Below are positions 15,905-38,733 of a DNA stretch of 64,000 nucleotides, piece after piece. The notes beneath the pieces were generated by a model. That model was given only the letters and a program-made list of their open reading frames with translations, was not told the origin of the DNA and ran no database searches. Source of the DNA: Oleomonas cavernae (GTDB taxonomy: Bacteria > Pseudomonadota > Alphaproteobacteria > Zavarziniales > Zavarziniaceae); NCBI RefSeq assembly GCF_003590945.1, contig NZ_QYUK01000008.1, forward strand, positions 434,001 to 498,000, read 5' to 3'. How positions within the stretch are numbered: the first letter of the stretch is position 1; every line of letters begins with the position of its first letter. The position numbers were made by a program, and so were the translations under genes.

Positions 15905-15966
15905 CCAGGGTGGCGTGGTCGATGATTGCGTGGTTTGGCGCCGTTCAGCCCCTTGGAGGGAGTAAC

Positions 15967-16188: not shown

Positions 16189-16210
16189 TCTGCTCAGCCG
16201 AACTCAGCCT

Positions 16211-16996: not shown

Positions 16997-17003
16997 GCCC
17001 CGC

Positions 17004-17026
17004 GCCGCCGCTTGCGGGGGAGAGGG
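17004..17026 (+). repeat. Fragment of family A repeat
   Basis: GCCGCCGCTTGCGGGGGAGA followed by GGG matches the first ~25 bp of the family A copy at 40832. The rest of the element is absent. It sits between the convergent ends of xdhC and the LysR gene. Confidence 0.6.
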
Positions 17027-17034
17027 CTTTAGGT

Positions 17035-17973: not shown

Positions 17974-18034
17974 GAGCCCAGCCTCTATTCTTCTGATATT
18001 TTTGAAGATGATATGGTCAGTGAAAAGGTTTTCT

Positions 18035-18047
18035 TTGCGTAACGCAA
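18035..18047. promoter_or_regulatory. LysR-type operator TTGCGT-A-ACGCAA
   Basis: A perfect 13-bp palindrome with the T-N11-A layout of LysR binding sites. It lies 61 bp upstream of the LysR start (17973) and 48 bp upstream of puuD (18096), the usual place for a shared autoregulatory/activator box. Confidence 0.6.
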
Positions 18048-18095
18048 CTGCAACGATGCTGCGGTGCAAAATGCGTGACGGCGCGCGGAGGGGTG

Positions 18096-19335: not shown

Positions 19336-20469
19336 TCAGCCCACGGCGCTGCGCTTCTTCTTGCCCGGATCGTCGAAGGGCAGGCTATGCGCGGTCGCGC
19401 TGGCGCTCAGCTTGGCGCCTTTGACCTCCAGCGGCGTGCCGTGGACGGCGGCGGCGACGTCGAGGCGGGCGATGGCCATCGATTTGCCGGTCAGCTTCGA
19501 GGTCATCGCGCAGGTGACGACGCCGACCTTGGCGCCGCCGCTCCACAGTTCGTCGCCGGCGTCCGCCGCCACGTCCGCCTCGATCAGCACGCCGAAGATC
19601 TTGAAGCGTTCCTGGCCTTTCAGCTTGTAGTGCTGTTCGGCCCCGCGGAAGCCGACCTTGCCGGGGCTGACGGTGAAATCGAGGCCCAGTTCCCACAGCG
19701 TGTCGCCCGGCGGCTGGTCCGCGAAGGGATACATCTGCGAATTGTCGTAAGGGTAGAACAGCAGATAGCTTTCGACCCGCAGCATGTCGAGCACGGTGAA
19801 GCAGCAGGGCACGATGCCCATCCCCGCGCCTTGCGTCAGGATCGTGTCCCAGATCACCGGTGCGTCGGCGCCCTTGCAGAAGATCTCGTAGCCGCGCTCG
19901 CCGGTATAGCCGGTGCGGGAAATCATCACCGGCTTGCCGAACAGCCGGGTCTGGGTGTGATGGAAATAGGGCAGGTCGCGGATACCCGGCACATGCCCGG
20001 CCAGGAAATCCACCGCCACCGGCCCTTGCAGCGACAGGTCGTGGAGATCGTCGTCGAACAGCACGGCGACATTGCGCGCCTGGGCCGCCTTGGTCAGTTC
20101 CTCGTGCCCGGTGCCGGTGCCGTGCACCACCATCCAGGCATTGGGCCCGGTGCGGTAGAGGATGCAGTCGTCGGTGAAATGGCCGGCATCGTTCAGCATG
20201 CAGGCATAGGCCGACTTGCCGGGATAGATCTTCGACGTATCGCGCGTGGTTACGTATTCGATCACCGCCTGGGCATGGGGGCCGACCAGGTGCATCTTCT
20301 TCAGGCCCGAGACATCCATCAGCCCGGCCTTGGTGCGGATGGCGACGTGCTCGTCGCCCATGTCCTTGGCATAGGTCCAGGCGGTGCCCATGCCGCTCCA
20401 GTCCTCGAGCTTCGAGCCCAGCGCCAGATGGCGATCAGCGAGGACGGATGTTCTCCAACTCAACGGCAT
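19336..20469 (-). CDS. GcvT-like folate-dependent aminomethyltransferase/demethylase
   Basis: A 377-residue protein of the glycine-cleavage T-protein / DmdA fold. Seen: DVSGLKKMHLVGPHA in the folate domain, LSLQGP, ISRTGYTGERGYEIF, and the Asp-containing FTVLDMLRVESYLL of the tetrahydrofolate site. Start 20469 has AAGGGGG upstream; the longer reading from 20508 covers that site. It is divergent from the flavoprotein gene at 20725 and convergent with puuD. No gcvP or gcvH is near, so a glycine-cleavage role is unlikely. Transfer of a methyl or methylene group from a methylated amine to tetrahydrofolate fits the neighbourhood. The substrate is unknown. Confidence 0.85.
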   Translation of the reverse strand: MPLSWRTSVLADRHLALGSKLEDWSGMGTAWTYAKDMGDEHVAIRTKAGLMDVSGLKKMHLVGPHAQAVIEYVTTRDTSKIYPGKSAYACMLNDAGHFTDDCILYRTGPNAWMVVHGTGTGHEELTKAAQARNVAVLFDDDLHDLSLQGPVAVDFLAGHVPGIRDLPYFHHTQTRLFGKPVMISRTGYTGERGYEIFCKGADAPVIWDTILTQGAGMGIVPCCFTVLDMLRVESYLLFYPYDNSQMYPFADQPPGDTLWELGLDFTVSPGKVGFRGAEQHYKLKGQERFKIFGVLIEADVAADAGDELWSGGAKVGVVTCAMTSKLTGKSMAIARLDVAAAVHGTPLEVKGAKLSASATAHSLPFDDPGKKKRSAVG

Positions 20470-20591
20470 GAAGCCCCCTTGAGACGCGGCACGAGATACT
20501 TTCTTCACGGTAACGTATTTTTCTCTCTACGCAATATCCCGCGCGTAATTCATCATTCCGGACGATTGCTCGACGACCTTGGATTCGGATT

Positions 20592-20724: not shown

Positions 20725-22125
20725 ATGAGCAGCACGAAGACCTGGGGTGGGGAAGAGTTCTGGGGTCTTGGCTTCGAATGGGACCCGCAATGGGTGCTGA
20801 ACGATGCGCAAAAGGCGCTGCAGGCCAGGCTGATCGAGCTTTGCGCGGCCACGATGCGCGACAATGCGATCGAAAGCGACAAGACCTATACCTACCCGCG
20901 CAAGAACTTCGAGGCGATGGCTGAACTCGGCCTGCTGGGCCTGCTGGTGCCTAAGGAACTGGGCGGCCTGGGCGAGTCGCACACCTGCGCCGCCATGGTG
21001 GTCGAGACCATTGCCCGCTATGGCTGCCCGTCGACCGCCATGTGTTACACCATGCACCTGGGCGCCACCGCCGCCGCCCTGCTGCGCCACCACGACAATG
21101 CCCGCCTGACCGATATCCTCAAGCGCCTGGACAAGGATGTGCTGATCGGCACCCTGTCCTATTCCGACCCGGAAACCGGCTCCCACTTCTGGTACCCGAT
21201 CTCGTCCAAGGCGGAACGCCATGGCGACGGCTGGAAGGTGTTCAAGAAGGCGTCGTGGACCACCTCGGGCGGCTTTGCCGACTGGTACATCGTCCAGACC
21301 ACCAGCCCGGATTTCGCCGGCGACTATTCCGACCTGTCGTGCTTCCTGATCCCCGCCGATGCGGTTAAGTCCGATCCCTCGTCCTGGGACGGCCTGGGCC
21401 TGCGCGGCAACCAGTCGGGCCCGATCGAGGTCAACGGCGTGGTCCTGCCCAAGGATGCCCTGGTCGGGCCGACCGGCGACGGCGCCCGCTCGAACGACGA
21501 GGCGGTCGACCCGTTCTTCCTGCTGTGCTCGTCATCGTGCTGGAACGGCATCGCGCTCGGCGTGATCGACATCGCCAAGCGCCACACCACCCGCAAGACC
21601 CACAACGACGTGGGCATGCGCGTCGCCGACTACCCGACCATCCAGGACTATGTCGGCGAGGCGATCATGGACACCAACGCCTCGCGCGCCTTCGTCTTCC
21701 AGATGGCCAAGGCCCTGGACGACGTCACCAATGGCTGCGACTGGTCGGTGCATACCGACCTCGACGCCCTGCCCCGCGCCACTTTGCTGCACTGGATGTG
21801 GCAGGTGAAGTTCATGGCGGCCAAGAATGTCGCCCATGTCACCGACAAGATGCTGCATGCCTGCGGCGGCACCGGCTTCCGCCCCGCCCTGCAGATCGAA
21901 CGCTATCTGCGCGACGGCAAGGCCGGCTGGGTCATGGGCCCGACCAACGAGGTGCTGCGCCAGTTCGTGGGCAAGGCCTCGCTACTGGGCTTTGGCTCGC
22001 TCGACTATTGGAACAAGTCGGTGAACCACCGCGTCCTCGACAACGAGATCAAGAAGCTCGATGCCGAGGGCCGCCGCCAGCTTGCCGAAAAACTCCTGGC
22101 CGACGACAAGCAGAAGGTTGCCTGA
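20725..22125 (+). CDS. Acyl-CoA dehydrogenase superfamily flavoprotein of the methylated-amine cluster
   Basis: A 466-residue protein with the three-domain ACAD layout: helical N-terminus (LGLLGLLVPKELGGLGES), FAD-binding beta domain (GTLSYSDPETGSHFWYP, KKASWTTSGGFADWYIV), and helical C-terminus with ATLLHWMWQVKFMAAKNVAH and CGGTGFR. The segment that carries the catalytic Glu in medium-chain ACADs (YEGT-N-E) reads VMGPTNE here, with Gly405 at the Glu position. The base is therefore elsewhere, as in isovaleryl-CoA dehydrogenase, or the chemistry differs. AAGGAG precedes ATG 20725. The dmm genes follow 2 bp downstream, so it may oxidise a methylated amine or its acyl derivative rather than a fatty acyl-CoA; this is inference. 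Confidence 0.8.
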   Translation: MSSTKTWGGEEFWGLGFEWDPQWVLNDAQKALQARLIELCAATMRDNAIESDKTYTYPRKNFEAMAELGLLGLLVPKELGGLGESHTCAAMVVETIARYGCPSTAMCYTMHLGATAAALLRHHDNARLTDILKRLDKDVLIGTLSYSDPETGSHFWYPISSKAERHGDGWKVFKKASWTTSGGFADWYIVQTTSPDFAGDYSDLSCFLIPADAVKSDPSSWDGLGLRGNQSGPIEVNGVVLPKDALVGPTGDGARSNDEAVDPFFLLCSSSCWNGIALGVIDIAKRHTTRKTHNDVGMRVADYPTIQDYVGEAIMDTNASRAFVFQMAKALDDVTNGCDWSVHTDLDALPRATLLHWMWQVKFMAAKNVAHVTDKMLHACGGTGFRPALQIERYLRDGKAGWVMGPTNEVLRQFVGKASLLGFGSLDYWNKSVNHRVLDNEIKKLDAEGRRQLAEKLLADDKQKVA

Positions 22126-22127
22126 CC

Positions 22128-24269
22128 ATGGCAATGGTCGAGCGGTTCGGCGTCGCCGGGGGGACCAGCATGGCAGTCACCCTGGGGGCCGGCGACCGCC
22201 TGACCATCCGCGACGCGGAGGGCTTGCAGCCGGCCGGGCTGGTCGTCCTCGAGGGCGATCTCGGCCCGCTGCCCGAGCGCCTGCTGACGGGCGCAACCGC
22301 CCCCGGCAGCAGCGTCACCCTCGAGGCCCCCACCGCCTCCACCGTCGTGATCTCGGCCCCCGGCGCCGACATGGCGCCGGACGAACAGGCCCCGCCCACC
22401 GACCTGGTGGTGGAGATCGCCCGGCACGGCGCCAATGCCCGGCCCCTGCCGCCGCCGCTGGGCAGGGTCAAGGCGGAATTGCACATCGATGCCGCCACCG
22501 CCAGCGCCTATAAGGTTTCGGCCGGCGACTATATCCAGGTGATCGACGTCGACGGCAAGCAATGCTCGGACTTCCTGGCCTTCGATGCCGCACGGCTTGA
22601 CGATGGCGAGGAGATCGGCATCGACGCCACCACCACCACCACCCTGCTGGGCGCCGCCTATCCCGGCCCCGGCCTCCTGTCCAAATTCTTCGACGGCCGG
22701 ATGCGGCCGCTGGTCGAGGTGGTGCGCGACACGGTGGGCCGGCACGACACCTTCGCCCTGGCCTGCACCGCCAAGTATTACGAGGACATGGGCTATCCCG
22801 GCCATCCCAGTTGCTCCGACAACTTCAACGGCGCGCTGGCCCCCTACGGCATCGCCCCGCGCAAGGGCTGGCCGGCGATCAACCTGTTCTTCAATACCGC
22901 CATGGGGTCCGACAACCGCCTGTCGTCGGACGAACCCTGGTCGCGGCCCGGCGACTATGTGCTGTTCCGCGCCATGACCGACCTGGTCTGCGCCTCCTCG
23001 GCCTGTCCCGACGATATCGATCCGTCGAATGCCTGGATGCCCACCGACATTCATGTGCGCATCTACGACAAGGCGCAGGAATTCTCCAAGGGAAATGCCC
23101 ACCGCATGACGCCCGACGCCATTCCCCGCCTGACCCGGACCAGCGGCTTCCATGACCGCACCAGCGTCCTGACCCGCAACCTGGTCGATTACCGCGGTTT
23201 CTGGACGCCGGACTGCTATGCCGGCAACGGCCCGATCGACGAATACTGGGCGGCCCGCGAGCGTTGCGTGGTCATGGACCTGTCGGCCCTGCGCAAGTTC
23301 GAAGTCATCGGTCCCGATGCCGAAGCCCTGCTGCAGAAGGCCCAGACCCGCAACCTGGCCAAGCTGGCGGTGGGCCAGGTGGTCTATACCGCCTTCTGCT
23401 ACGAACACGGCGGCATGATCGACGACGGCACCATCTTCCGCCTTGGGCTGCAAAACTTCCGCGTCGTCTGCGGCGACGATTACCTGGGCGTCTGGCTGCG
23501 CCAACTGGCCGAACAGCACGAACTGAAAGCCTGGGTCAAATCCTCGACCGATCAACTGGGCAACCTGGCCGTCCAGGGCCCCTTGAGCCGCACCGTCCTG
23601 GAACAGGTGATCTGGACCCCGCCTGTCCAGGCCAGCATCACGGAACTGAAATGGTTCCGCTTCACCATCGGCCGCATCGGCGGGCCGCAGGGCCCGGCCG
23701 TGGTGGTTTCGCGCACCGGCTACACCGGTGAACTGGGCTTCGAGATCTGGTGCCATCCCAAGGATGGCGTCGCGGTATGGGATGCGATCTGGGCAGCGGG
23801 CAAGCCCCACGGCCTGGCCCCGCTGGGCCTCTCGGCCCTGGACATGCTGCGGGTCGAAGCGGGCCTAGTCTTCGCCGGTTACGATTTCGACGACCAGACC
23901 GACCCGTTCGAGGCCGGCATCGGCTTCACCGTCGCCGACAAGGCGGAGGACTATGTCGGCAAGACGGCGCTGGCCCGCCGGCGCGCCAACCCCTTGCGCA
24001 AGCTGGTGGGGCTGGAGATCACCGGCAACGAGGCTATCGGCCATGGCGACTGCCTCCACATCGGCCGGGCGCAGATCGGCGTGGTGACCAGCGCCGCCCG
24101 TTCACCCCTCCTGGGCCGGACCATCGCGCTGGCCCGCGTCGATGCGCTCTATGCCGATCTGGGCCGGACGGTGGAGATCGGCAAGCTGGACGGCCAGCAG
24201 AAGCGCATTGCCGCCCGCGTCGTCCGCTTCCCGCACTACGATCCCGAGAAGACGCGGGTCCGCGCATGA
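22128..24269 (+). CDS. dmmD: DUF1989-GcvT fusion protein, DmmD-like
   Basis: 713 residues. The N-terminal ~125 residues are of unclear family. About 125-330 is a DUF1989 / urea-carboxylase-associated domain (DVDGKQCSDFLAFDA, SCSDNFNGALAPYG, SSACPDD). About 355-713 is a GcvT-type aminomethyltransferase (VMDLSALRKFEVIGPDA, LAVQGPLSRTVLEQ, VSRTGYTGELGFEIW, LSALDMLRVEAGLVF). Genes of this kind accompany the dimethylamine monooxygenase genes as dmmD; folate-dependent capture of the C1 unit is the likely role. ATG 22128 overlaps the end of the preceding frame's spacing by design of the operon (2-bp gap), and the stop overlaps dmmA as ATGA. Confidence 0.78.
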   Translation: MAMVERFGVAGGTSMAVTLGAGDRLTIRDAEGLQPAGLVVLEGDLGPLPERLLTGATAPGSSVTLEAPTASTVVISAPGADMAPDEQAPPTDLVVEIARHGANARPLPPPLGRVKAELHIDAATASAYKVSAGDYIQVIDVDGKQCSDFLAFDAARLDDGEEIGIDATTTTTLLGAAYPGPGLLSKFFDGRMRPLVEVVRDTVGRHDTFALACTAKYYEDMGYPGHPSCSDNFNGALAPYGIAPRKGWPAINLFFNTAMGSDNRLSSDEPWSRPGDYVLFRAMTDLVCASSACPDDIDPSNAWMPTDIHVRIYDKAQEFSKGNAHRMTPDAIPRLTRTSGFHDRTSVLTRNLVDYRGFWTPDCYAGNGPIDEYWAARERCVVMDLSALRKFEVIGPDAEALLQKAQTRNLAKLAVGQVVYTAFCYEHGGMIDDGTIFRLGLQNFRVVCGDDYLGVWLRQLAEQHELKAWVKSSTDQLGNLAVQGPLSRTVLEQVIWTPPVQASITELKWFRFTIGRIGGPQGPAVVVSRTGYTGELGFEIWCHPKDGVAVWDAIWAAGKPHGLAPLGLSALDMLRVEAGLVFAGYDFDDQTDPFEAGIGFTVADKAEDYVGKTALARRRANPLRKLVGLEITGNEAIGHGDCLHIGRAQIGVVTSAARSPLLGRTIALARVDALYADLGRTVEIGKLDGQQKRIAARVVRFPHYDPEKTRVRA

Positions 24270-24855
24270 TGGCCGACACCATCCCCAGCCGGCCCCGCTA
24301 TGAACGGCTGCGCCGCGACGAGAGCGGCCGGCGGCACCTGCTGGTGACCGACGGCGAAACGGTGCCGGCGCAAAGCCTGGCCGAGGATGGCGGCGGGCTC
24401 GACGCGGTCGAGACCTGGACCATCACGCGCAGCAGCCGCGCCCTGTCCAGCCCATTGGCGCCTGAGAACCTGCCGCGCCGGCACGTCTTCCGCTCCAATG
24501 CCCATCTGATGGCCAGCCTGGAACGCCGCCTGAAGGATGAGAGCATCGGCTTCCGCCTCTATGCCGTGGGCACCGAGCCATTCCTGTGGGATGTCGCGGC
24601 ACTTGCCCGCGGCTTTGGGCTGAGCACCGGGGAATGTTTTGTCGCCCATGCCGGCTCGCTGAAGCGGCGGGTGATCTGCGTGCACTGCAAGGCCGTCACG
24701 GACGAGGTTGTGACCAACATCGTCGCCTGCAGCGGCTGCGGTGCCCAGCTTCTGGTGCGCGATCATTTCTCCAAGCGGCTGGCGGCCTTCATGGGGGTGC
24801 AGATCGATTCTGAAGTGCCGGGTGACCTTCCCCCGTCGAGGAGGTCTTCCCGTGA
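24266..24855 (+). CDS. dmmA: Dimethylamine monooxygenase subunit DmmA (frameshift near 24832)
   Basis: About 196 residues after correction. The C-terminal third contains CVHCK ... CSGCGAQLLVRDHFSKRL, a four-cysteine zinc-ribbon or iron-site motif characteristic of DmmA-type subunits. The frame breaks at the C5 run 24830-24834. One extra C gives the ending PPVEEVFP and a TGA that overlaps the next GTG start, the usual DmmA C-terminus. ATG 24266 overlaps the dmmD stop (ATGA), indicating coupled translation. It works with DmmB and DmmC to oxidise dimethylamine to methylamine and formaldehyde. Confidence 0.8.
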
Positions 24856-25805
24856 TCGCCCACGGCCCCCTGACCTTGAAGGTGCGCAGCGCCGAACCCT
24901 TGGGGCACAGCCTGAAACGCCTGGTGCTGGAGGCGGCCGACGGCGGCCCCCTGCCATCGGCCGGGGCCGGCGGCCATATCCAGTTGCGGCTGAAAGGTCC
25001 CACCCGCGGTTGGCGGAATGCCTATTCGCTGACCTCGCCGCCCGATGCCCGCGACCACTACGCCATCATCGTCCGCCGGGTCAGCCAGTCGCGCGGCGGC
25101 TCCGCCTTCGTCCACGAGGCAGTGGGGGCCGGCACCATCGTCGAAGCCGGCATGCCCAATAATTTCTTTGCCGTCTCCAACGTCGCGCGCAAGCACCTGC
25201 TGGTCAGCGGCGGCATCGGCCTCACCCCTTTCCTGTCCTACCTGGAACAGTTCCGCCAGCGCGGCAGCCCTTTCGAGCTGCACCACCTGTGCCGCGCGGA
25301 AGACATGCCGGTGTTTGCCCGCCTGCTGGAACCCTTCGGGGCCCGCTCGATCCACCTGCACCCCACCCGCCGCGGCTTCGATTTGGCGGCGCTGCTGGCC
25401 CGGCAACCGCTAGGCACCCACCTCTATACCTGCGGGCCGCACAGCCTGATGGACCAGGTACTTTCCACGGCCTCGGATCTGGGCTGGCCGGCGTCCAAGC
25501 GCCATGCCGAATCCTTCGGCGAAACGGCGGTGGGCGGCGCCCCGTTCCATGTGCTGCTGGCCAGGAGCGGCATCGAAATCGCCGTGGGGCCGGAGCAAAG
25601 CCTGCTCGAAGCCCTCGAGGCCGCCGGCATCGATGCCCCCTGCCTGTGCCGTGGGGGCGCCTGCGGCGAATGCCGCCTGCCCCTGCTGGAGGGAGTCGCC
25701 GATCACCGCGACGATTTCCTGTCGGCCGAGGAACACGCAGCGGGCAAGTTGATCCTGACCTGCGTGTCGCGTGCCAAGGGGCCGCGCCTCGTCATCGACC
25801 TGTGA
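24852..25805 (+). CDS. dmmB: Dimethylamine monooxygenase reductase subunit DmmB
   Basis: A 317-residue class IA-type reductase. An N-terminal FAD domain (RNAYSLTSPP) and NAD(P) domain (HLLVSGGIGLTPFLSYLEQF, HLYTCGP) are followed by a C-terminal plant-type 2Fe-2S domain (APCLCRGGACGECRLPL ... LTCVSRA). It transfers electrons from NAD(P)H to the DmmC oxygenase. The GTG start at 24852 overlaps the corrected dmmA stop; longer readings upstream only translate dmmA in another frame. The vanillate demethylase reductase family is the nearest general group, but the flanking dmmA and dmmC fix the context. Confidence 0.88.
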   Translation: MIAHGPLTLKVRSAEPLGHSLKRLVLEAADGGPLPSAGAGGHIQLRLKGPTRGWRNAYSLTSPPDARDHYAIIVRRVSQSRGGSAFVHEAVGAGTIVEAGMPNNFFAVSNVARKHLLVSGGIGLTPFLSYLEQFRQRGSPFELHHLCRAEDMPVFARLLEPFGARSIHLHPTRRGFDLAALLARQPLGTHLYTCGPHSLMDQVLSTASDLGWPASKRHAESFGETAVGGAPFHVLLARSGIEIAVGPEQSLLEALEAAGIDAPCLCRGGACGECRLPLLEGVADHRDDFLSAEEHAAGKLILTCVSRAKGPRLVIDL

Positions 25806-25812
25806 GGCTTGC

Positions 25813-26868
25813 ATGGGCCTGATCTTCAAGCCGACCGAAACCTTCCGGGGCGACTTTTCCTATCGCAACAGCGATGCCGCCCTCCTGCGCTTCCCCTTCC
25901 CGTTCCCGGAAGACGCCTACATGTATGCGGTGAACATCGAGCCCCATGTCCGCGGCGGGCCGACCGCCGCCTACGACCATGTCTTCGATGTCGACGAGCA
26001 TTACATCGCCGAATGCCACGAGCGCGCCCTGGTGCTGGAACAGGATCCACTACGCTGCCAGGTGCTGCCGCACATGATTACGGCGGAATGGGACACGCTG
26101 GAACTGATCATGGAGAGCCTGGCGACGGATTACCCCGCGCAGTTTTCGCTGGCCCGTGAGGGCGACCGCTGGACCTGGGTGAACCGGCCGCTGGGCATCA
26201 CCCAGGCCTTCACCTTCGGCGATGCCGCGACCCTGCCCTGCGGCCCGTTCGAATACATCACCCGCCAGGCCCAGGGCGATTTCACCATCCAGGACCAGCG
26301 CGACGACAACCTGTTCATGGACGGCGGCATGGTCACCACCCAGGCCGACTGGTCGCTGCACGTCGACCTGGGCATGGCGTTCCACGAATGGCATGGGCCG
26401 GTGCCCCTGGCCCACCCGATCGGGGTGTTCGACCGGGCGCTGAAATACCTGCTGCGCCTGCAATACGGCCGGCCGGTGCGGCGCCTGAACTGGACCATGA
26501 CCATCAACCCGCGCCTGGACACCTCGCCCGAGAATTACCCCGTGTGGGGGCCTGACCGCACCACGATCACGCCCGACAACGTGGCCGACAAAGTGCACCT
26601 TAGGGTCGAATTGCAGACCCTGTTCCGCCTGCCACGCTCCAACGGCGTGCTGTTCGGCATCCGCTGCTACCTCGCCTCGGTGCGGGAACTGGCCCGGGTG
26701 CCGAAATATGCCAGGCGGCTGCACCGGGTGCTGCGCGACCTGCCGCCGGAGATCATCGACTACAAGGGCCTGACCCGGTTCCGGCCGATGGTGATCGACT
26801 GGCTGGCCCCGTTCGACGACGGCGCCCCGCTCGCCAGCGGCACCGCGCCGGAGATCGATGCGCTCTAA
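25813..26868 (+). CDS. dmmC: Dimethylamine monooxygenase DUF3445/haem N-demethylase-type subunit DmmC
   Basis: A 351-residue DUF3445 protein, the family of haem-dependent oxidative N-demethylase alpha subunits. The series NEWx-like segments ITAEWDTLELIMESL, MVTTQADWSLHVDLGM, HGPVPLAHP and LRVELQTLFRLPRSNGVLFG are the family's conserved core. It is taken to be the oxygen-activating subunit of dimethylamine monooxygenase. ATG 25813 follows GAGG and lies 7 bp after dmmB. Together dmmDABC matches the order reported for methylotrophic proteobacteria. Confidence 0.87.
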   Translation: MGLIFKPTETFRGDFSYRNSDAALLRFPFPFPEDAYMYAVNIEPHVRGGPTAAYDHVFDVDEHYIAECHERALVLEQDPLRCQVLPHMITAEWDTLELIMESLATDYPAQFSLAREGDRWTWVNRPLGITQAFTFGDAATLPCGPFEYITRQAQGDFTIQDQRDDNLFMDGGMVTTQADWSLHVDLGMAFHEWHGPVPLAHPIGVFDRALKYLLRLQYGRPVRRLNWTMTINPRLDTSPENYPVWGPDRTTITPDNVADKVHLRVELQTLFRLPRSNGVLFGIRCYLASVRELARVPKYARRLHRVLRDLPPEIIDYKGLTRFRPMVIDWLAPFDDGAPLASGTAPEIDAL

Positions 26869-29320: not shown

Positions 29321-30183
29321 CTACCCCCGGAACACCACCGTCTTGTGACCGTTCAGCAGGACGCGGTCATCCAGGTGGTAGGCCAGCGCGCGGGCCAGCA
29401 CGCGACGCTCGATATCGCGGCCCTTGGCCACCAGTTCCTCGGCCGAATCGTGGTGGGTGATGCGTTCCACGTCCTGTTCGATGATCGGGCCTTCGTCGAG
29501 GTCGGAGGTGACGTAATGCGCCGTCGCCCCGATCAGCTTGACGCCCCTGGCATGGGCCTGGTGATAGGGCTTGGCCCCTTGAAGCCGGGCAGGAAGGAAT
29601 GGTGGATATTGATGCAACGCCCGGTCAGCTTGGCCGCCAGCCCGTCCGAGAGGACCTGCATGTAACGGGCCAGGACCACGACGTCCGTGCCCGTCTCCTT
29701 GACCAGGGCCCAGATCGCCGATTCCTGTTCCAGCTTGGTTCCCTTGCTGACCGGCATGTGGTGGAAGGGAATGCCGTCGAAATCGAGGTGGGGATAGGTC
29801 TCGCGCGGGTGGTTGGAGACGACCGCCGCGATCTCCATCGGGATCTCGCCGATGCGCCAGCGATAGAGCAGGTCGGCCAGGCAATGATCGAACTTGGAGG
29901 CGAGCAGCATCACCTTGCGCTTCTCGCCCCGCTGGCGAAGGCCCCAGTTCATGCCGAATTCCTCGGCGATGGCGGCAAAGCCCGCACGCACCTCGGCGAA
30001 GCTGGCCTTGGGGGTCACCTGGTTGAACACCACGCGCATGAAGAAGCGCCCGGTTTCGGTATCGTCGAACTGGTGCGCCTCCAGGATATTGCCGCCGACC
30101 TCGAACAGATAGGTCGATACCCGGGCGACGATGCCCGGGCGGTTGGGGCAGGACAGGGTCAGAATCGCGTCATGGGCGGACAT
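29321..30183 (-). CDS. purU: Formyltetrahydrofolate deformylase PurU (frameshift near 29577)
   Basis: Hydrolyses 10-formyl-tetrahydrofolate to formate and tetrahydrofolate. It has an N-terminal ACT domain ([20 protein letters not shown]) and a formyltransferase-like catalytic domain ([42 protein letters not shown], then [12 protein letters not shown]). The frame breaks at a four-base run (29575-29578, GGGG on the coding strand); one more G restores [20 protein letters not shown] and a normal 287-residue protein. As the last gene of the N-methylglutamate operon it would dispose of methylamine-derived C1 units as formate. Confidence 0.88.
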
Positions 30184-30246: not shown

Positions 30247-30819
30247 TCAACCTCGTCCCTTGGCGGGAACAACCTCGATCCCGAATTCGGCACCGCTGGC
30301 AATCAGCCAAGCCATGAAACTCACCCAATAGCTGCGCGCGATCAAAAGCGCGAAACGGGGCGTCGCGTCAAGGCACCAAAGGGTGACGCCGATATGGGCG
30401 ACGATGGTGGTCGCGGCACTCCCGGGCGGGAAGGCAGCCGCATGCAGGTCCAGCGGCACGCCCTTGGCCAGGCATTTCAAGACCGACGGACCCGACAGGG
30501 TCACCGGGACGAAGCCGTCGCTCTGCTCGGTGACTGAGGCAACGCCATGCAGGCTGCGGCCGAGATCGGGCGGCGCGCCCAGGACCAGCCAGCGCCCGGG
30601 GCCAACCGCCACTGCCCCCAGTGCCCCCGCACCGACATGGGCCGGGCGCCTGGGCAGGGTCAGGCCGTAATTGATCGCCATCAGTTCGGCCAGGCCGGCC
30701 GCGCCGTGGCGGCGCTCGGCCACGCTGGCGATCGACAGGCCTTCGATCACCTCCGCGGTGACACCGGCCAGGCCCTCGGCCACACCATGACGGCCATAGA
30801 TCTGCGCGGTCTCAAGCAC
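30247..30819 (-). CDS. mgdD: N-methylglutamate dehydrogenase subunit D (sarcosine oxidase gamma-like)
   Basis: A 190-residue protein of the SoxG family (small GcvT-like fold), ending with VTLWCLDATPRFALLIARSYW, a family signature. The GTG start at 30819 overlaps the mgdC stop codon and has GGGGGAG upstream; the longer reading from 30933 runs antiparallel through mgdC coding sequence in another frame. It is the fourth subunit of the sarcosine-oxidase-like complex. The context with gmaS and mgsABC favours N-methylglutamate over sarcosine as substrate. Confidence 0.83.
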   Translation of the reverse strand: MLETAQIYGRHGVAEGLAGVTAEVIEGLSIASVAERRHGAAGLAELMAINYGLTLPRRPAHVGAGALGAVAVGPGRWLVLGAPPDLGRSLHGVASVTEQSDGFVPVTLSGPSVLKCLAKGVPLDLHAAAFPPGSAATTIVAHIGVTLWCLDATPRFALLIARSYWVSFMAWLIASGAEFGIEVVPAKGRG

Positions 30820-33754
30820 GGAGCCGCTCCCCCGCCGGATCGACGAACACCGGGTTGCAAACCTCGACCAGGATATCGCCCAGCCCACGCACCGGATCGA
30901 CCGCGCGCACCTGTTGGCCCAGGCGCGTGGCACCTTCCGCCATCAGCCCCAGGCCGATCCAGGTGTCGGTGTGCGGCGAATAGGCGACCGAGGTCACGTA
31001 ACCCAGGTCGTTGGCCGCATCCGCCGGCGCGCCCGTGGCAATGAAGTGGGCACCGGCCCGCAGGCGCGCCTTGGGATCGACCGGGCGCAGGCCCACCAGG
31101 CTGGGCCGCCGGGGATCGGTCAGGCCCGGGCGATCGGCCATCACCTTGCCGATGAAGTCCTTCTTGGCCGACATCATCCGCCCCAGCCCCAGGTCCATGG
31201 CCGTGGTCTGGCCCGAGAGTTCGTTGCCGGCCGGATGGCCCTTCTCGATGCGCATCACGCCCATCGCCTCGGTCCCGTAAGGCGTGGCACCGGCCGCCAG
31301 CAGGGCATCGGCCACGGCCGGGGCCTGGGCCGCCGGCACCGCCAGCTCGTAGGCCAATTCGCCGGAGAAGGAGAGGCGGAAGAGCCGTGCCTTGATGCCG
31401 CCCAGCACCGTCAGTTCCAGCACGCCCATATAGGGCAGCGCGATATTGGAAATATCGAACCGGGCATCGACCAGCCTGGCCAAGGTCTCGCGCGATTTCG
31501 GTCCTGCCACGGCGATCTGCGCCCATTGATCGGAGATCGAGGTCAGTTGCACGTCCAGTTGCGGCCACAGCACCTGCAGGCAGAATTCCAGGTGCTGGAA
31601 CACTTTCACCGCATTGGCCGTCGTCGTGGTCATGACGAAGTGATCGGAGGCGAGGCGTGCCGTGGTGCCGTCGTCCATGACCATGCCGTCCTCGCGCAGC
31701 ATGACGCCGTAGCGCGCCTTGCCCAGGCCAAGGCTCGAGAACATGTTGATATAGACCCGGTCGAGCAGGGCTGCGGCGTCCGGCCCCTGGATATCGATTT
31801 TTCCTAAGGTGGAGACATCGCAAAAGCCGACGCTGCCGCGCACGGTTTGCACTTCCCGGGTTACGGTGGCCAGCCAGTCGCGCTCGCCGGCTTTCGGGAA
31901 ATACTGTGCCCGTAGCCACGGGCCGGCCTCGACGAAGACCGCGCCCTGCGCCTTGGCCCATTCATGGGTGGGGGTGAGCCGCGTGGGACGGAAATCCTTG
32001 CCGCGATGGTGCCCGGCCAGCGCGCCGATGGCGACCGGCGTCCAGGGCGGGCGGAACATGGTGGTGCCGGTCTGCGCAATGCCCTGCCCGGTCAGCGCCG
32101 CCATCACGGCCAGGCCGTTCACATTGGCGGTCTTGCCCTGGTCGGTCGCCATGCCCAGCGTGGTGTAACGTTTCAGATGCTCGACCGAACGGAAACCCTC
32201 GGCATGCGCCAGCGTGATGTCCTTCACGGTGACATCGTTCTGGAAATCGATGAAGGCCGGCCCTTTGCCATCCTCGACCAGCCAGAAGGCGCGGATCGAC
32301 GCCGGCTCATCAGATGCCTTGGGCACGGCGCCCGCCTCGATGCCAAGGGCCGATGCCGCCGCCCATGCACCGTCAGCCAGGCAGGCGGCAAGGGTCAGCT
32401 TGCCGGCGGCAGCACCCGCGGCGATCAGGCCAGGGGGTGCCTTGCCGGGGACGAAAGCGGCCAGCGCCGCGTCCCACACCGGCCGGCCGCCGTGATGGCT
32501 GGTCAGGTGCAGGTTGGGCGACCAGCCGCCGGAGACGGCAAGGCCGTCGACCGCGATCTTGCGCCGGGCACCGCCCGCGACGAGCTCGATTGTTTTCAGA
32601 CGCTTGCCGGCCGTACCGATCACCCGGCCGCCCAGAACGACCTCGACACCCAGTTTCGCCAGCGGCGCGGCCAAGGCCGGATCCACCGTCTCGCGCACAT
32701 CGATCACCGCCGCGATATTCACCCCGGCGGCGGCCATGTCCGCGGCGGCACTCCAGGCGGAATCATTATTGGCGAAGACCGCCAACCGCTCGGCCACGAC
32801 AACGCCGAAGCGCCGGGCATAGGCCCGCGCCGCACCGGCGGTCATGATCCCCGGCCGGTCGTTGTTGCCGAAAGGGATCGGCCGTTCGGTGGCGCCCGCC
32901 GCCAGCACCGCCGCCTTGGCCGAGATCTGCCACAGGCGCTGGCGCGGGCAGAACGGCGGCGGCAGGGCCATGTGATCCGCCACCCGTTCCAGGGCGCCAT
33001 AGGTGCCGTGGTCGAACACGCCGAAGACACTGGTGCGCGGCATCACCGTAACCGTGGACGCGGCGGCCAGTTCGGCCGCCGCCTGTGCGGCCCAATCCAA
33101 CCCCGCCATACCATTGATCTCGGCTGTCTCGGCCAGCAGGCGCCCGCCCAGGCGGTGATCTTCCTCGGCCAGGATCACCCGCTTGCCGGCCCGCGCGGCA
33201 GCCAGCGCGGCCATCAGGCCGGCCGGACCGCTGCCGATGACCAGCAGATCGCAGAAGGCGAAAGCCTTTTCGTAAGTGTCGGGATCTGCCTGCGTCGCCG
33301 CCCGGCCCAGGCCGGCGGCACGGCGGATCGCGGGTTCGTAGAGCTTCTCCCAGAAGGCGGCCGGCCACATGAAGGTCTTGTAATAGAAGCCCGCGCCAAA
33401 GAACGGCGCCGCCAGGCGGTTCACCGACAGGACATCAAAATTCAGGCTTGGCCAGCGGTTCTGGCTGGCGGCCTCGAGGCCGTCGTAAAGCTCGACCATG
33501 GTGGCACGGCTGTTGGGCTCGCGCCGCGCGCCGCCGCGCAGTTCGACCAGCGCATTGGGCTCCTCCGGCCCGGCGGAGGCGATACCGCGCGGCCGGTGAT
33601 ACTTGAACGAGCGGCCGACCAGGGTCACGCCATTGGCGAGCAGGGCCGAGGCCAGGGTATCGCCGCCATGCCCGGTGAAGGCCTTGCCGTCGAAGCTGAA
33701 ACCCAGCGCGGTGCCACGATCGATCAGGCCGCCGCTGGCAAGACGCCGGCTCAT
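30812..33754 (-). CDS. mgdC: N-methylglutamate dehydrogenase subunit C (sarcosine oxidase alpha-like)
   Basis: 980 residues. The N-terminal ~110 form the SoxA-type domain with SFKYHRPRGIASAGPEEPNA. A dinucleotide-binding domain starts near residue 171 (LLVIGSGPAGLMAALAAARA, EEDHRLGGRL), with a second nucleotide segment NNDSAWSAAADMAAAG. The C-terminal ~390 residues are a GcvT-like tetrahydrofolate domain (VGFCDVSTLGKIDIQGPDA, LSFSGELAYELAV, MGVMRIEKGH). It oxidises the N-methyl group and hands the C1 unit to folate. ATG 33754 overlaps the mgdB stop (ATGA). The length is as expected for SoxA (about 970-1000). Confidence 0.9.
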   Translation of the reverse strand: MSRRLASGGLIDRGTALGFSFDGKAFTGHGGDTLASALLANGVTLVGRSFKYHRPRGIASAGPEEPNALVELRGGARREPNSRATMVELYDGLEAASQNRWPSLNFDVLSVNRLAAPFFGAGFYYKTFMWPAAFWEKLYEPAIRRAAGLGRAATQADPDTYEKAFAFCDLLVIGSGPAGLMAALAAARAGKRVILAEEDHRLGGRLLAETAEINGMAGLDWAAQAAAELAAASTVTVMPRTSVFGVFDHGTYGALERVADHMALPPPFCPRQRLWQISAKAAVLAAGATERPIPFGNNDRPGIMTAGAARAYARRFGVVVAERLAVFANNDSAWSAAADMAAAGVNIAAVIDVRETVDPALAAPLAKLGVEVVLGGRVIGTAGKRLKTIELVAGGARRKIAVDGLAVSGGWSPNLHLTSHHGGRPVWDAALAAFVPGKAPPGLIAAGAAAGKLTLAACLADGAWAAASALGIEAGAVPKASDEPASIRAFWLVEDGKGPAFIDFQNDVTVKDITLAHAEGFRSVEHLKRYTTLGMATDQGKTANVNGLAVMAALTGQGIAQTGTTMFRPPWTPVAIGALAGHHRGKDFRPTRLTPTHEWAKAQGAVFVEAGPWLRAQYFPKAGERDWLATVTREVQTVRGSVGFCDVSTLGKIDIQGPDAAALLDRVYINMFSSLGLGKARYGVMLREDGMVMDDGTTARLASDHFVMTTTTANAVKVFQHLEFCLQVLWPQLDVQLTSISDQWAQIAVAGPKSRETLARLVDARFDISNIALPYMGVLELTVLGGIKARLFRLSFSGELAYELAVPAAQAPAVADALLAAGATPYGTEAMGVMRIEKGHPAGNELSGQTTAMDLGLGRMMSAKKDFIGKVMADRPGLTDPRRPSLVGLRPVDPKARLRAGAHFIATGAPADAANDLGYVTSVAYSPHTDTWIGLGLMAEGATRLGQQVRAVDPVRGLGDILVEVCNPVFVDPAGERLRA

Positions 33755-34003: not shown

Positions 34004-35256
34004 TCAATGCAGGTTCGGCTGCGCGCCGACCCCTTTCTCGTCGATCAGATGGCCGGTCGCGAAGCGGTCCAGGCGATAGGCGGCACTCGTCCCATGGGGC
34101 TCGTCCTTGGCCAGGGTCCAGGCGAAGCAGAAGCCGGACGCCGGCGTCGCCTTGAAGCCGCCATAGCACCAGCCGGCATTGAGGTAGAGGCCGGGCCTGG
34201 GCGTCTTGTCGATGATCGGGCTGCCGTCCATCGACATGTCCATGATCCCGCCCCACATCCGCAGCAGGCGCAGCCGGCCGATCACCGGCATCAGGGCCAT
34301 GCCCCCTCCGCCACATCCTCCACCACCGGCATATTGCCGCGCTGGGCATAGGAATTGTAACCGTCGATATCGCCGCCGAAGACCAGCCCGCCCTTGTCGG
34401 ACTGGCTGACATAGAAATGCCCGGCGCCATAGGTCACCACGCCGTCGATCAGCGGCTTGATGCCCTCGGAGACGAAGGCCTGCAAGGCATGGGATTCGAT
34501 GGGCAGGCGCAGCCCGGCCAGTTTTGCCACGCGCGAGGTGTTGCCGGCCACCGCCAGGCCCACCTTGCCCGCCCGGATCGGCCCGCGGCTGGTCTCGACG
34601 CCGGTGATGGTTTCACCCTCCGTCAAAAAGCCTGTCACCTCGCAGTTCTGGATGATGTCGACGCCCAGCCTGTCGGCCGCCCGGGCATAGCCCCAGACCA
34701 CCGCATCGTGCCGCGCCGTGCCGCCGCGCCGGTGCAGCAGGCCGCCCTGGATGGGAAAGCGGGCATTGTCGAAATCGGCGAAGGGAACGAAGGGCCGCAC
34801 CTGGTCGCGGTCGAGCAGTTCGGCATCTACGCCGTGCAGGCGCAGGGCATTGCCGCGCCTGGCATAGGCATCGCGCTGGGCATCGGAATGGTAGAGGTTC
34901 AACACACCGCGCTGGCTGACCATGGTGTTGTAGTTGAGGTCCTGTTCCAGGCGTTCCCACAGCTTCATCGAGAATTCGTAGAACGGGATGTTGCCGGGCA
35001 GGAGGTAGTTGGAGCGGATGATGGTGGTGTTGCGCCCGGCATTGCCGCCGCCGATCCAGCCCTTCTCGATCACCGCCACATTGCGGATGCCGTGTTCCCT
35101 GGCCAGGTAATAGGCCGTCGCCAGCCCATGCCCGCCGCCGCCGATGATGACCACGTCATAGGCAGGCTTGGGCGAGGCATCACGCCACGCCGGCCGCCAC
35201 CGCTTGTTGCCGGTCAGCGCGTTGGCAAGGATGGCGAAGGCGGAGTAACGCATCAT
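34004..35256 (-). CDS. mgdA: N-methylglutamate dehydrogenase subunit A (sarcosine oxidase beta-like; frameshift near 34304)
   Basis: A 417-residue FAD/FMN subunit after correction. The FAD motif is VVIIGGGGHGLATAYYLARE, followed by GNAGRNTTIIRSNYLL, the SoxB-type flavin-attachment neighbourhood. Further on are GGLLHRRGGTARHDAVVWGY and, after the break, RMWGGIMDMSMDGSPIID and LNAGWCYGGFK. The frame breaks at a C5 run (34302-34306; G5 on the coding strand); one added G joins the two parts. It forms the catalytic core with mgdC. A family B repeat separates it from gmaS. Confidence 0.88.
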
Positions 35257-35377: not shown

Positions 35378-36679
35378 TCAGCAATCCAGCGTCGTGTCGC
35401 GTTCCCACTGGGTCAGGTGGCGGGAATAGGCGTTCCAGTCGTCGTGCTTCAGCTTCAGGTAAGACGAGATGAAGCCCTCGCCCAGGCCGTCGGCCAGCAC
35501 CTTGGATTTCTCCAGCGCGCGCAGGGCGTCGAGCAGGTTCAGGGGCAGCTTCTTGGCGCCCTTCACCTTGTGGCCCTCGGTGTACATGTTGATGTCCAGC
35601 CGCTTGCCGGGATCGCGGGCATGCTCGATCCCGTCGAGGCCCGCGACCAGCACCGCGGCGGGCAGCAGGTAGGGGTTGGCGGCACCGTCGGCCAGGCGGA
35701 ACTCGAAGCGGCCCACATCGGGGATGCGGATCATGTGGGTGCGGTTGTTGCCGGTATAGGTCACGGTATTGGGCGACCAGGTGGCGCCCGACAGGGTGAC
35801 CGGCGCATTGATGCGCTTGTAGGAATTCACCGCCGGGTTGGTCAGGGCGCACATCGCCTGGGCTTCCGCCATCACCCCGCCGATGAAATGATAGCCGGTC
35901 TGCGACAGGCCCAGCTCGTCGGCCTTGTCGACGAACACGTTCTTCGCCCCCTTCCACAGCGAGACATGCATGTGGCAGCCGGAACCGGTCAGGTTCATGA
36001 AGGGCTTGGGCATGAAGGTGGCGCGCAGGCCATGCTTCTCGGCGATCGAGCGGACCATGTATTTGAAGAAGGCATGGCGGTCGGCGGTCAACAGGGCGTT
36101 GTCATATTCCCAGTTCATCTCGAACTGGCCGTTGGCGTCCTCGTGATCGTTCTGATAGGGCTTCCAGCCCAGCGCCAGCATGGCATCGCAGATCTCGGTG
36201 ATGATGTCGTAGCGACGCATCAGGATGAGCTGGTCGTAGCACGGCTTGGCCGCGCTATCGGCCGCGTCCGAAATGCCGGCGGCATCGGGGGTCAGCAGGA
36301 AATATTCGCACTCGACCCCGGTCTTCATCTCGAAGCCCCGGGCCTTGGCCGCCGCCATCGCCTTTTTCAGCACCGTGCGCGGCGCCTGTTCCACCAGCTT
36401 GCCGTCCATCCACAGGTCGGCCGCGACCCAGCCCACCTCGGGCTTCCAGGGCAACTGTATCAGGCTGTCGGGATCGGGCACGGCGAACAGGTCGGAATCG
36501 GCCGGCGACATGTCCAGCCAGGTGGCAAAGCCGGCAAAGCCCGCCCCCGCCTTGGACATCTCGCCGATCGCCGCCGCCGGCACCAGCTTGGCGCGCTGCA
36601 CGCCGAACAGGTCGGTATAGGAGATCAGGAAATACTTGATGCCCTTGTCCTTGGCCGCCTTCACCAGATCGATCGCCAT
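35378..36679 (-). CDS. gmaS: Gamma-glutamylmethylamide synthetase
   Basis: A 433-residue glutamine-synthetase-fold enzyme of the GlnT/GmaS group. It ligates methylamine to glutamate with ATP. Conserved GS parts: GVECEYFLLTPD (metal Glu), NGQFEMNWEYDNAL, FMNLTGSGCHMHVSLW (ATP/ammonia site), and FEFRLADGAANPYLLPAAVL. The length (433) and lack of the adenylylation Tyr loop differ from GlnA. The adjacent mgsC and mgdA identify it as GmaS rather than a nitrogen-assimilation GS. Confidence 0.92.
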   Translation of the reverse strand: MAIDLVKAAKDKGIKYFLISYTDLFGVQRAKLVPAAAIGEMSKAGAGFAGFATWLDMSPADSDLFAVPDPDSLIQLPWKPEVGWVAADLWMDGKLVEQAPRTVLKKAMAAAKARGFEMKTGVECEYFLLTPDAAGISDAADSAAKPCYDQLILMRRYDIITEICDAMLALGWKPYQNDHEDANGQFEMNWEYDNALLTADRHAFFKYMVRSIAEKHGLRATFMPKPFMNLTGSGCHMHVSLWKGAKNVFVDKADELGLSQTGYHFIGGVMAEAQAMCALTNPAVNSYKRINAPVTLSGATWSPNTVTYTGNNRTHMIRIPDVGRFEFRLADGAANPYLLPAAVLVAGLDGIEHARDPGKRLDINMYTEGHKVKGAKKLPLNLLDALRALEKSKVLADGLGEGFISSYLKLKHDDWNAYSRHLTQWERDTTLDC

Positions 36680-36701: not shown

Positions 36702-38015
36702 TCAATACTGCCCCGCGCCCGGAATCCAGTCGGTGCCGGCCAGCGGCACGCGCGCCATGGCCGCCGCCTCGACGGTCAGCGCCACCAGATCCTCGGGCTC
36801 CAGATTATGCACATGGCTCTTGCCGCAGGCGCGCGCGATGGTCTGCGCCTCGAGCGTCAGGACCGCCAGGTAGTTGGCCAGGCGCCGGCCGGCCTTCACC
36901 GGGTCGAGGCGCGCGGCCAGCAGTGGGTCCTGGGTGGTGATACCCGCCGGATCACGGCCCTCGTGCCAGTCGTCGTAGGAGCCGGCCGTGGTGCCCAGGG
37001 CGGCGTATTCAGCCTCGTGCACCGGGTCGTTGTCGCCCAGCGCCACCAGCGCCGCCGTGCCGATCGAGACCGCATCGGCCCCCAGCGCCAGGCATTTGGC
37101 GACATCGGCGCCATTGCGGATCCCGCCCGAGACGATCAACTGCACCTTGCGGTGCAGCCCCAAGTCCTGCAGCGCCTGCACCGCCGGCCGGATCGAGCCC
37201 AGCAGGGGAATGCCGACATGTTCGATGAACACTTCCTGGGTCGCCGCGGTGCCGCCCTGCATGCCGTCGAGCACGATCACGTCGGCACCCGACTTCACCG
37301 CCAGGGCCGTGTCGTAATAAGGCCGGGCGGAGCCGACCTTGACATAGATCGGCTTTTCCCAGTCGGTGATCTCGCGCAGTTCCTCGATCTTGATCTCCAG
37401 GTCGTCAGGCCCGGTCCAGTCGGGGTGGCGGCAGGCGGAACGCTGGTCGATGCCCTCGGGCAGGTTGCGCATCTGGGCGACGCGGGCCGAGATCTTCTGG
37501 CCCAGCAGCATGCCGCCGCCGCCCGGCTTCGCGCCCTGGCCCACCACCACCTCGATGGCGTCGGCCTTGCGCAGGTCGTCCGGGTTCATGCCATAGCGCG
37601 ACGGCAGGTATTGATAGACCAGGATCGAGGACTGGCCGCGTTCCTCCGGGGTCATGCCGCCGTCGCCCGTGGTGGTCGAGGTGCCCATGGCCGAGGCGCC
37701 GCGCCCCAGCGCCTCCTTGGCCTGGGCCGAGAGCGAGCCGAAGCTCATGCCCGCGACCGTGACCGGGATCTTCAGCTCGATCGGCTTCTTGGCGAAACGG
37801 CTGCCCAGGATCACATTGGTCCCGCACTTCTCGCGGTAGCCTTCCAGCGGATAGCGGCTGATCGAGGCGCCCAGGAACAGCAGGTCGTCGAGGTGGGGTA
37901 CCCGGCGCTTGGCGCCGCCACCGCGGATGTCATAGATGCCGGTGGCCGCCGCCCGGCGGATCTCCGACAGGGTGTAATCGTCGAAGGTCGCGGATTTGCG
38001 TGGGGTGGTGATCAT
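36702..38015 (-). CDS. mgsC: N-methylglutamate synthase subunit C (FMN/Fe-S glutamate synthase domain)
   Basis: A 437-residue protein homologous to the FMN-binding synthase domain of glutamate synthase. Seen: MSFGSLSAQAKEALGRGASA, GQGAKPGGGGMLLGQKIS, KVGSARPYYDTALAVKSGAD with the FMN barrel segment VIVLDGMQGGTAA, and IVSGGIRNGADVAKCLALGA. It makes N-methylglutamate from gamma-glutamylmethylamide-derived methylamine. Start 38015 matches the family (MITTPRKSATFDDYTL); the reading from 38102 would overlap mgsB. It follows mgsB closely. Confidence 0.92.
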   Translation of the reverse strand: MITTPRKSATFDDYTLSEIRRAAATGIYDIRGGGAKRRVPHLDDLLFLGASISRYPLEGYREKCGTNVILGSRFAKKPIELKIPVTVAGMSFGSLSAQAKEALGRGASAMGTSTTTGDGGMTPEERGQSSILVYQYLPSRYGMNPDDLRKADAIEVVVGQGAKPGGGGMLLGQKISARVAQMRNLPEGIDQRSACRHPDWTGPDDLEIKIEELREITDWEKPIYVKVGSARPYYDTALAVKSGADVIVLDGMQGGTAATQEVFIEHVGIPLLGSIRPAVQALQDLGLHRKVQLIVSGGIRNGADVAKCLALGADAVSIGTAALVALGDNDPVHEAEYAALGTTAGSYDDWHEGRDPAGITTQDPLLAARLDPVKAGRRLANYLAVLTLEAQTIARACGKSHVHNLEPEDLVALTVEAAAMARVPLAGTDWIPGAGQY

Positions 38016-38025
38016 CCGCTGAACC

Positions 38026-38733
38026 TCAGTAGGCGCCGGCATTGTCGACATGGAAATGATAGAGCTGCCGGGCCGAACCGTAGCGCTTGAAATCCGAGAC
38101 ATCGACGGCGCCGTTAAGGCCGGCCGCTTTCAGCCGCGCAAACAGCATGGCCTTGTGCTCGTCGCGCAGTTCCTTCTCGATGCAGTCGGCGCCGAGGCTG
38201 GCGACCGAACCGCGCACGAACAGCCGCGCCTCGTAGATTGAATCGCCCAGCGCCTCGCCGGCGTCGCCCAGCACGGTCAGGGAGCCGCTCTGCGCCATGA
38301 AGGCCGACATGTGACCGATGCCGCCCTTCACCACGATGTCGACGCCCTTCATGGAAATGCCGCAGCGGGCCGAGGCATTGCCGTCGACGATCAGCAGCCC
38401 ACCCTGGGCGGTAGCACCCGCCGCCTGGCTGGCGTCGCCCTTCACATGCACGATGCCCGACATCATGTTCTCGGCCACGCCCACCCCGGCATTGCCGTTG
38501 ACGATCACCTTGGCCAGCTTGTTCATGCCGGCACAGTAGTAGCCGACATGGCCGTCGATCTCGATCGTCAGCGCCGCATCGACGCCGGCCGCCACCGAAT
38601 GCCGGCCGCCGGGGTTGAGCACGCGCCACAGCCGCTGATTGACGTCGGGCCCGACCTTGTGAAGTGCTGCATTGAGCTCGCGTACGCTGGCGCTGCCCAG
38701 GTCGATCGTGTGCTCCATCAGCGGCAAGGTCAT
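38026..38733 (-). CDS. mgsB: N-methylglutamate synthase subunit B (GXGXG beta-helix domain)
   Basis: A 235-residue right-handed beta-helix of the GltB C-terminal GXGXG type. Repeats such as VIVNGNAGVGVAENMMSG, HVKGDASQAAGATAQGG and IVVKGGIGHMSAF show the turns. It bridges the amidotransferase and FMN subunits for ammonia/methylamine channelling. ATG 38733 overlaps the mgsA stop (ATGA). Confidence 0.9.
   Translation of the reverse strand: MTLPLMEHTIDLGSASVRELNAALHKVGPDVNQRLWRVLNPGGRHSVAAGVDAALTIEIDGHVGYYCAGMNKLAKVIVNGNAGVGVAENMMSGIVHVKGDASQAAGATAQGGLLIVDGNASARCGISMKGVDIVVKGGIGHMSAFMAQSGSLTVLGDAGEALGDSIYEARLFVRGSVASLGADCIEKELRDEHKAMLFARLKAAGLNGAVDVSDFKRYGSARQLYHFHVDNAGAY

Follow-up and report, generated by a model that had tools for sequence, protein, structure and literature searches.

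A candidate two-component trimethylamine monooxygenase with an acyl-CoA dehydrogenase fold, encoded beside trimethylamine N-oxide demethylase

The open reading frame at 20725..22125 (+) of the window, by which we mean the whole 64,000-nucleotide stretch of DNA that was analysed, probably encodes the oxygenase component of a two-component flavin monooxygenase with an acyl-CoA dehydrogenase (ACAD) fold, similar to the group D enzymes, which would convert trimethylamine (TMA) to trimethylamine N-oxide (TMAO) in place of the unrelated class B monooxygenase Tmm. With slightly less confidence, we also favour the broader view that a second, non-homologous TMA monooxygenase, made of an ACAD-fold protein and a separate flavin reductase, is the missing first step of aerobic TMA degradation in bacteria bearing TMAO demethylase (Tdm), from about five phyla by record labels and including cyanobacteria. 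We propose a TMA monooxygenase because relatives of the gene are linked to flavin reductases, are frequently accompanied by Tdm and avoid Tmm.

The methylated-amine locus of the window

The ACAD-fold gene starts with ATG and encodes 466 amino acids without interruption. Two nucleotides separate its stop codon from the start codon of Tdm (22128..24269, +; start picked by position), a protein with DUF1989, GCV_T and GCV_T_C domains which scores 1209.7 bits against the 1100-bit cut-off of NF053776. Probable genes of dimethylamine (DMA) oxidation follow on the same strand, namely a DmmA-like dimethylamine monooxygenase subunit (24266..25162, +; NF041259, PF22289, PF22290), whose domain matches span residues 5-183 and whose real end is probably earlier, a ferredoxin-reductase-type protein that is probably the reductase subunit of this monooxygenase (24741..25805, +; Fer2, DmmA-like_N), and an HODM alpha-like haem subunit, probably of the same enzyme (25771..26868, +; PF11927, 1.4e-67). 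Divergently upstream of the ACAD-fold gene lies a stand-alone, folate-binding GcvT protein (19336..20508, -), which we call DmmD-like from its domain match; DmmD is described with a GcvT domain in the accessible part of an earlier report (PMC5520151).

Further downstream, genes on the reverse strand would carry monomethylamine (MMA) to ammonium. They comprise a sarcosine-oxidase alpha-like protein (30812..33754, -; TIGR01372, 1356 bits) and a shortened sarcosine-oxidase beta-like ORF (34291..35256, -; TIGR01373, 547 bits, positions 1-318 of 407), both probably subunits of N-methylglutamate dehydrogenase (Mgd), a type III glutamine synthetase that its context suggests is the gamma-glutamylmethylamide synthetase GmaS (35378..36679, -; TIGR03105, 682 bits), and three ORFs with glutamate-synthase, GXGXG and glutamine-amidotransferase domains, for which we suggest the name MgsCBA, N-methylglutamate synthase (36702..39629, -). 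A shortened ORF for formyltetrahydrofolate deformylase, PurU, is found at 29533..30183 (-; profile positions 4-208 of 286). The methylated-amine setting put forward in the original prediction is borne out, as is its statement that CoA ligase, thioesterase and ETF genes are missing from the immediate surroundings: none was found among the neighbours scanned around the ACAD-fold gene.

Judged by these family matches, the locus looks like a path from TMAO through DMA and MMA to ammonium without its usual first enzyme, Tmm. No Tmm was detected in the genome that holds the window (96.28% complete) at E<=1e-60, and its best FMO match is a 443-aa FMO whose start, by eye, is not Tmm-like. The 466-aa protein itself has no match to PF00743 or NF058570 (Tmm, FMO-like), the families hit at E<=0.001 being of ACAD type throughout.

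Several ORFs of the window appear shortened or frame-broken, through either assembly indels or real breaks: those of PurU and the sarcosine-oxidase beta-like protein, and one at 10345-11831 which by eye is a xanthine-dehydrogenase small subunit. The last belongs to a stretch of purine-degradation genes (10345-19325) that adjoins the methylamine locus and includes xanthine-dehydrogenase-like ORFs (by eye) and a Urate_ox_N protein with a C-terminal CxxCH (by eye).

Genomic company of the gene in other bacteria

A scan of genome contigs gave 219 relatives of the ACAD-fold protein, the best 80 of which were analysed. These 80 stem from Alpha- and Betaproteobacteria, Cyanobacteria and metagenome bins, the latter bearing labels, which can be wrong, such as Latescibacterota, Gemmatimonadota, Armatimonadetes and Acidobacteria, among others; named isolates include Xanthobacter, Aquabacter, Azoarcus and Zoogloea. 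A search of plasmids gave no match to the protein at 1e-80. Tdm (at least 43% identity) is present in 61 of the best 80 loci and in 42 of the 45 among them with at least 5 kb of flank on both sides, the three well-flanked loci without it (L093, L094, L105) all being cyanobacterial. When eight of the neighbouring Tdm proteins were scanned, all matched the Tdm model, five of them above the 1100-bit cut-off (L041 by one bit) and three below it (L052 with 1069, L086 with 830 and L109 with 788).

The association also holds in samples of whole classes, in which we accepted the ACAD-fold gene at E<=1e-60 and Tdm at E<=1e-150. Among 385 Alphaproteobacteria, all seven genomes with the ACAD-fold gene are among the 34 with Tdm (hypergeometric probability 2.3e-8, or 2.6e-7 without the window's genome, uncorrected for relatedness), and the two genes lie within about 4 kb of each other in six of these seven carriers, four of which belong to one family. 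A sample of 369 Gammaproteobacteria, centred on a known carrier (G421), contains 15 genomes with Tdm and three with the ACAD-fold gene; one gammaproteobacterial carrier, G645, has no Tdm match at 1e-150. In G645 the contig with the copy is 8.6 kb long, and the genes around it are hypothetical ones whose N-termini resemble each other by eye.

In the two class samples, no genome with Tdm has both Tmm and the ACAD-fold gene. The 34 alphaproteobacterial Tdm genomes divide into 20 with Tmm, seven with the ACAD-fold gene and seven with neither, the 15 gammaproteobacterial ones into nine, two and four, so that 29, nine and 11 result for the pooled 49, and Tmm is absent from all nine ACAD-carrying Tdm genomes of the two class samples. 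The probability of such avoidance is 8.2e-5 by the hypergeometric distribution, or 5.1e-4 without the two genomes on which the samples were centred; without G292 the values become 2.8e-4 and 1.7e-3, respectively, all of them uncorrected for relatedness. G292 is the one genome of the nine with just a distant copy (60% identity), which falls outside the Tdm-linked clade (tree row PARA_7) and is on a different contig from Tdm. The 11 genomes with neither enzyme mean that the absence of Tmm alone does not call for the ACAD-fold gene. Three of these 11 (G626, G272 and G263) have all three genes of a TmoXWV-like TMAO importer beside Tdm, which fits the use of imported TMAO. All three importer genes occur in 2 of the 80 ACAD loci versus 9 of 26 Tdm loci without a local ACAD-fold gene, in a comparison of loci with differing flank lengths; such rarity is as expected if the carriers start from TMA.

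The strongest competitor to our proposal, to which we give a small but real chance, shares its chemistry: an ACAD-fold oxygenase feeds Tdm, but what it really oxygenates is a different tertiary amine, such as a dimethylalkylamine or dimethylaminoethanol, whose N-oxide is demethylated by a promiscuous Tdm. The same linkage to Tdm and flavin reductase would follow, and Tdm proteins below the cut-off, like the three named above, agree with it. It also gains from genomes with both enzymes, as expected if their substrates differ: of the 50 carrier genomes searched (from among those of the 80 loci), 45 have no Tmm and five keep one, these being three Labrys genomes, SYSU D60014 and FK1.bin31. On the other hand, the absence of any such pair from the 49 Tdm genomes of the class samples points to one and the same reaction, and the other genes of the window locus serve DMA and MMA.

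The TMA monooxygenase that we prefer would need a source of reduced flavin, and tblastn found a flavin reductase gene in 38 of the 80 ACAD-fold loci (the best 80 of 219), each within 1 kb of the ACAD-fold or Tdm gene, compared with 0 of 26 control Tdm loci without a local ACAD-fold gene. The controls omit two short loci (L137, L140) and include one (L172) whose genome, G292, has its distant copy elsewhere. The reductase gene may stand before the ACAD-fold gene, after Tdm or between the two, the last arrangement being that of Xanthobacter, Aquabacter sp. P-9, Labrys, Zoogloea, Azoarcus and Caballeronia loci, and the gammaproteobacterial genome G532 combines the ACAD-fold and reductase genes with Tdm and a transporter that by eye is of TmoXWV type. 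Four of the 38 reductases were checked and belong to PF01613; two, scanned against NCBIfam, best matched the reductases of ACAD-fold monooxygenases (p-hydroxyphenylacetate 3-hydroxylase, HsaB) and FerA, below the cut-offs. Four gammaproteobacterial Tdm regions with neither the ACAD-fold gene nor Tmm (L223-L226) contain no flavin reductase.

No reductase gene was found beside the window's own copy, nor in 42 of the best 80 loci, some on short contigs, including every cyanobacterial locus and that of Aquabacter spiritensis (L037). A search for a dedicated reductase elsewhere in the window's genome gave weak matches of 37% and 28% identity, the former adjoining a styrene-monooxygenase-like (styA-like) gene (by eye), and we did not retain them. 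Loci lacking a reductase would suit a flavin-dependent enzyme that works as an oxidase or dehydrogenase, rather than as a monooxygenase, on a methylated amine or an amine-derived compound, as would profile scores that lie closest to dehydrogenases. We nevertheless regard this reading as unlikely, somewhat more so than another tertiary amine, given the difference in reductase linkage between ACAD and control loci, and because direct oxidation of TMA by an oxidase would produce DMA, leaving no need for Tdm. The original prediction had pointed to nitroalkane oxidase as a superfamily member with a non-CoA substrate and considered a novel amine-related oxidation possible; its general direction, a flavoprotein of amine metabolism with a non-CoA substrate, agrees with the gene context in many lineages, whereas the analogy itself has given way to the reductase-fed TMA monooxygenase proposed here.

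Catalytic positions and fold of the protein

The 466-aa protein has the fold of an acyl-CoA dehydrogenase and its N- and C-terminal Pfam domains (Acyl-CoA_dh_N, 4.8e-16; Acyl-CoA_dh_1, 1.3e-8; the middle domain, Acyl-CoA_dh_M, reaches 29.5 bits, below its 33.3-bit cut-off), but it has a catalytic Glu at neither the MCAD-type nor the IVD-type position. Alignment with solved ACADs and with 29 ACAD-like ORFs of the same genome (two of which duplicate others because their loci overlap) places Gly405 at the MCAD-type position, the E of YEGT, within W402-V-M-G-P-T-N-E409 (nt 21928-21951), in accordance with the Gly that had been noted there. The alignment with the genome's own ORFs puts Phe264 at the IVD-type position, where two of them (L002 and L004) have E, and Phe265 in place of the Arg that follows. 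We take these two columns to be the catalytic Glu sites of MCAD and IVD, respectively. A base of the isovaleryl-CoA dehydrogenase type, for which the original prediction advised to look, is rejected at the level of sequence by Phe264.

What replaces the Glu is strongly conserved. Across the window protein and 40 relatives, AGW-x-MGPTNE is kept in all 41 sequences and the final V of the window's signature AGWVMGPTNEV (residues 400-410; 21922..21954, +; G405 at nt 21937-21939) in 39, and HFWYP (residues 154-158; 21184..21198, +), in the loop that holds GSD in ACADs, is likewise present in 41/41. Both motifs are found in 11/11 sequences of a smaller alignment of the window protein and 10 relatives, with identity down to 48%. 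Since MGPTNE and HFWYP are fixed in this manner, the loss of the Glu is not chance decay. An aromatic cage that accepts the methylammonium group could possibly be built by HFWYP together with W402.

Five distant copies (L027/L173, L028/L176, L029/L175, L030/L177, L031/L178; 48-64% identity) have no Tdm close by in the regions retrieved. One has a gene for an AMP-binding enzyme in its vicinity, a hint that the wider family could include CoA chemistry, and another is near genes for a GMC oxidoreductase and cytochrome c. Their contexts are too varied for a function to be called, and this wider family may act on other substrates. A conventional acyl-CoA dehydrogenase that uses some other base and works in a side pathway would agree with that AMP-binding gene and with the fold (Z about 40 with acyl-CoA dehydrogenases), yet is very improbable in view of the loss of both Glu positions and the adjoining Arg, the fixation of MGPTNE in their stead, and the company of Tdm across many lineages.

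The evidence on descent from group D enzymes disagrees in part. The AlphaFold model of the protein (pLDDT 81.2, pTM 0.84) has the ACAD fold, which is the type included in the definition of group D, and is weak at the loops with the conserved motifs (pLDDT < 50 at residues 148-158, 221-229 and 400-406), so that we use it for the overall fold and not to argue for or against a CoA pocket. Its top Foldseek match is 5z8t, titled 'Flavin-containing monooxygenase' (E 1.2e-16, 23% identity), a similarity of fold that shows no function, and dehydrogenases and DszC/TdsC follow closely. In VIA the highest ranks go to acyl-CoA dehydrogenases (best Z 43.6, with an rmsd of 2.3 over 370 residues); the 50 matches listed are acyl-CoA dehydrogenases and relatives, and the lack of a group D enzyme among these 50 excludes nothing. 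The best curated profile, Rv1679/FadE16 (NCBIfam NF049984), gives 219.8 bits, far below its 600-bit cut-off, and overall the profile scores are nearer to dehydrogenases and this model than to known group D enzymes.

In an unrooted tree of 38 rows, on the other hand, the family and the three monooxygenase-like ACAD homologues of the genome fall on one side with support of 95/98, under long-branch and composition warnings; these three score best with SfnB or HsaA models, below the cut-offs. The tree includes 12 of the 41 family rows and the genome's own ACADs, and none of its rows is a characterised group D enzyme. A preceding tree had 17 of the 41 family rows. Five of the genome's own rows were left out of both trees, two as duplicates and three as long proteins, and the 38-row tree also omits three further rows that the preceding one had flagged as long branches.

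Proposed reaction, related systems and implications

Under our proposal, an NAD(P)H:flavin reductase similar to HpaC or HsaB would make reduced FAD or FMN; in many relatives its gene would be the one beside the ACAD-fold gene, and here the reductase would come from elsewhere in the genome. The oxygenase would then bind reduced flavin and O2 to form a C4a-hydroperoxyflavin, whose distal oxygen would be taken by the lone pair of TMA to give TMAO. Hydroperoxyflavin chemistry works without a proton-abstracting Glu, and the loss of this residue fits such a mechanism because it is not needed there. Tdm, according to its family match, would split TMAO into dimethylamine and formaldehyde, and the proteins matched to Dmm, GmaS, Mgs and Mgd would lead on to ammonium.

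It is highly doubtful that the ACAD-fold protein acts on DMA or aids its oxidation instead: such a role would suit the cyanobacterial, Gemmatimonadota and Rhodospirillaceae ACAD loci, where no HODM gene was found at E<=1e-60, but the window and the majority of Xanthobacter, Aquabacter, Zoogloea, Labrys and Caballeronia loci have HODM together with the ACAD-fold gene, so that DMA is already served there.

A TMA monooxygenase of this kind would resemble Tmm (class B FMO, NF058570) in its reaction, its frequent Tdm neighbour and the pathway downstream, and differ from it in belonging to an unrelated family, that of Tmm being PF00743. Tmm, moreover, works without a separate reductase. Closer in design are the ACAD-fold group D enzymes Dms1-3 of Acinetobacter baylyi, which, in the part of the report available (PMC13352529), convert DMS to DMSO with the help of a separate flavin reductase. 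By that description, and not by sequence, they share the fold with our protein, and the proposed system would have the separate reductase and the oxygenation of a small methylated heteroatom in common with them, DMS to DMSO being the sulfur counterpart of TMA to TMAO; they differ in that an amine substrate is proposed here and in the linkage to Tdm. N-hydroxylation is described for group D, and an ACAD-type fold is named in the class definition, in the accessible text of PMC6165268, which cites VlmH among the members. VlmH/VlmR hydroxylate an amine nitrogen, converting isobutylamine to N-isobutylhydroxylamine, according to the portion of PMC11705231 at hand. This pair, also compared by description rather than sequence, resembles the proposed system in two-component flavin N-oxygenation of a small aliphatic amine, and differs in making a hydroxylamine for antibiotic biosynthesis, whereas a tertiary amine would here become an N-oxide in catabolism. 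No description of the ACAD-fold gene was found in the open-access literature searched, mainly by titles and the openings of abstracts, most subscription papers being outside that scope, and a literature search on growth of the carrier genera on TMA gave nothing usable.

If our proposal is true, TMA oxidation in soil, freshwater, sludge and cyanobacteria is undercounted. Genome surveys of TMA oxidation rely on tmm, as in the accessible part of PMC5520151, and would miss the carriers of the ACAD-fold gene. Tertiary-amine N-oxygenation would likewise be added to the known chemistry of the ACAD fold, and a protein that matches acyl-CoA dehydrogenase domains could turn out to be an amine oxygenase. 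Cyanobacteria with both the ACAD-fold gene and a Tdm-like protein, and no nearby flavin reductase, possibly have a TMA/TMAO nitrogen pathway. This combination was seen at L083-L089, L092, L096, L098, L099, L101 and L103, the Tdm-like proteins having about 48-52% identity, and that of L086 is 614 aa long.
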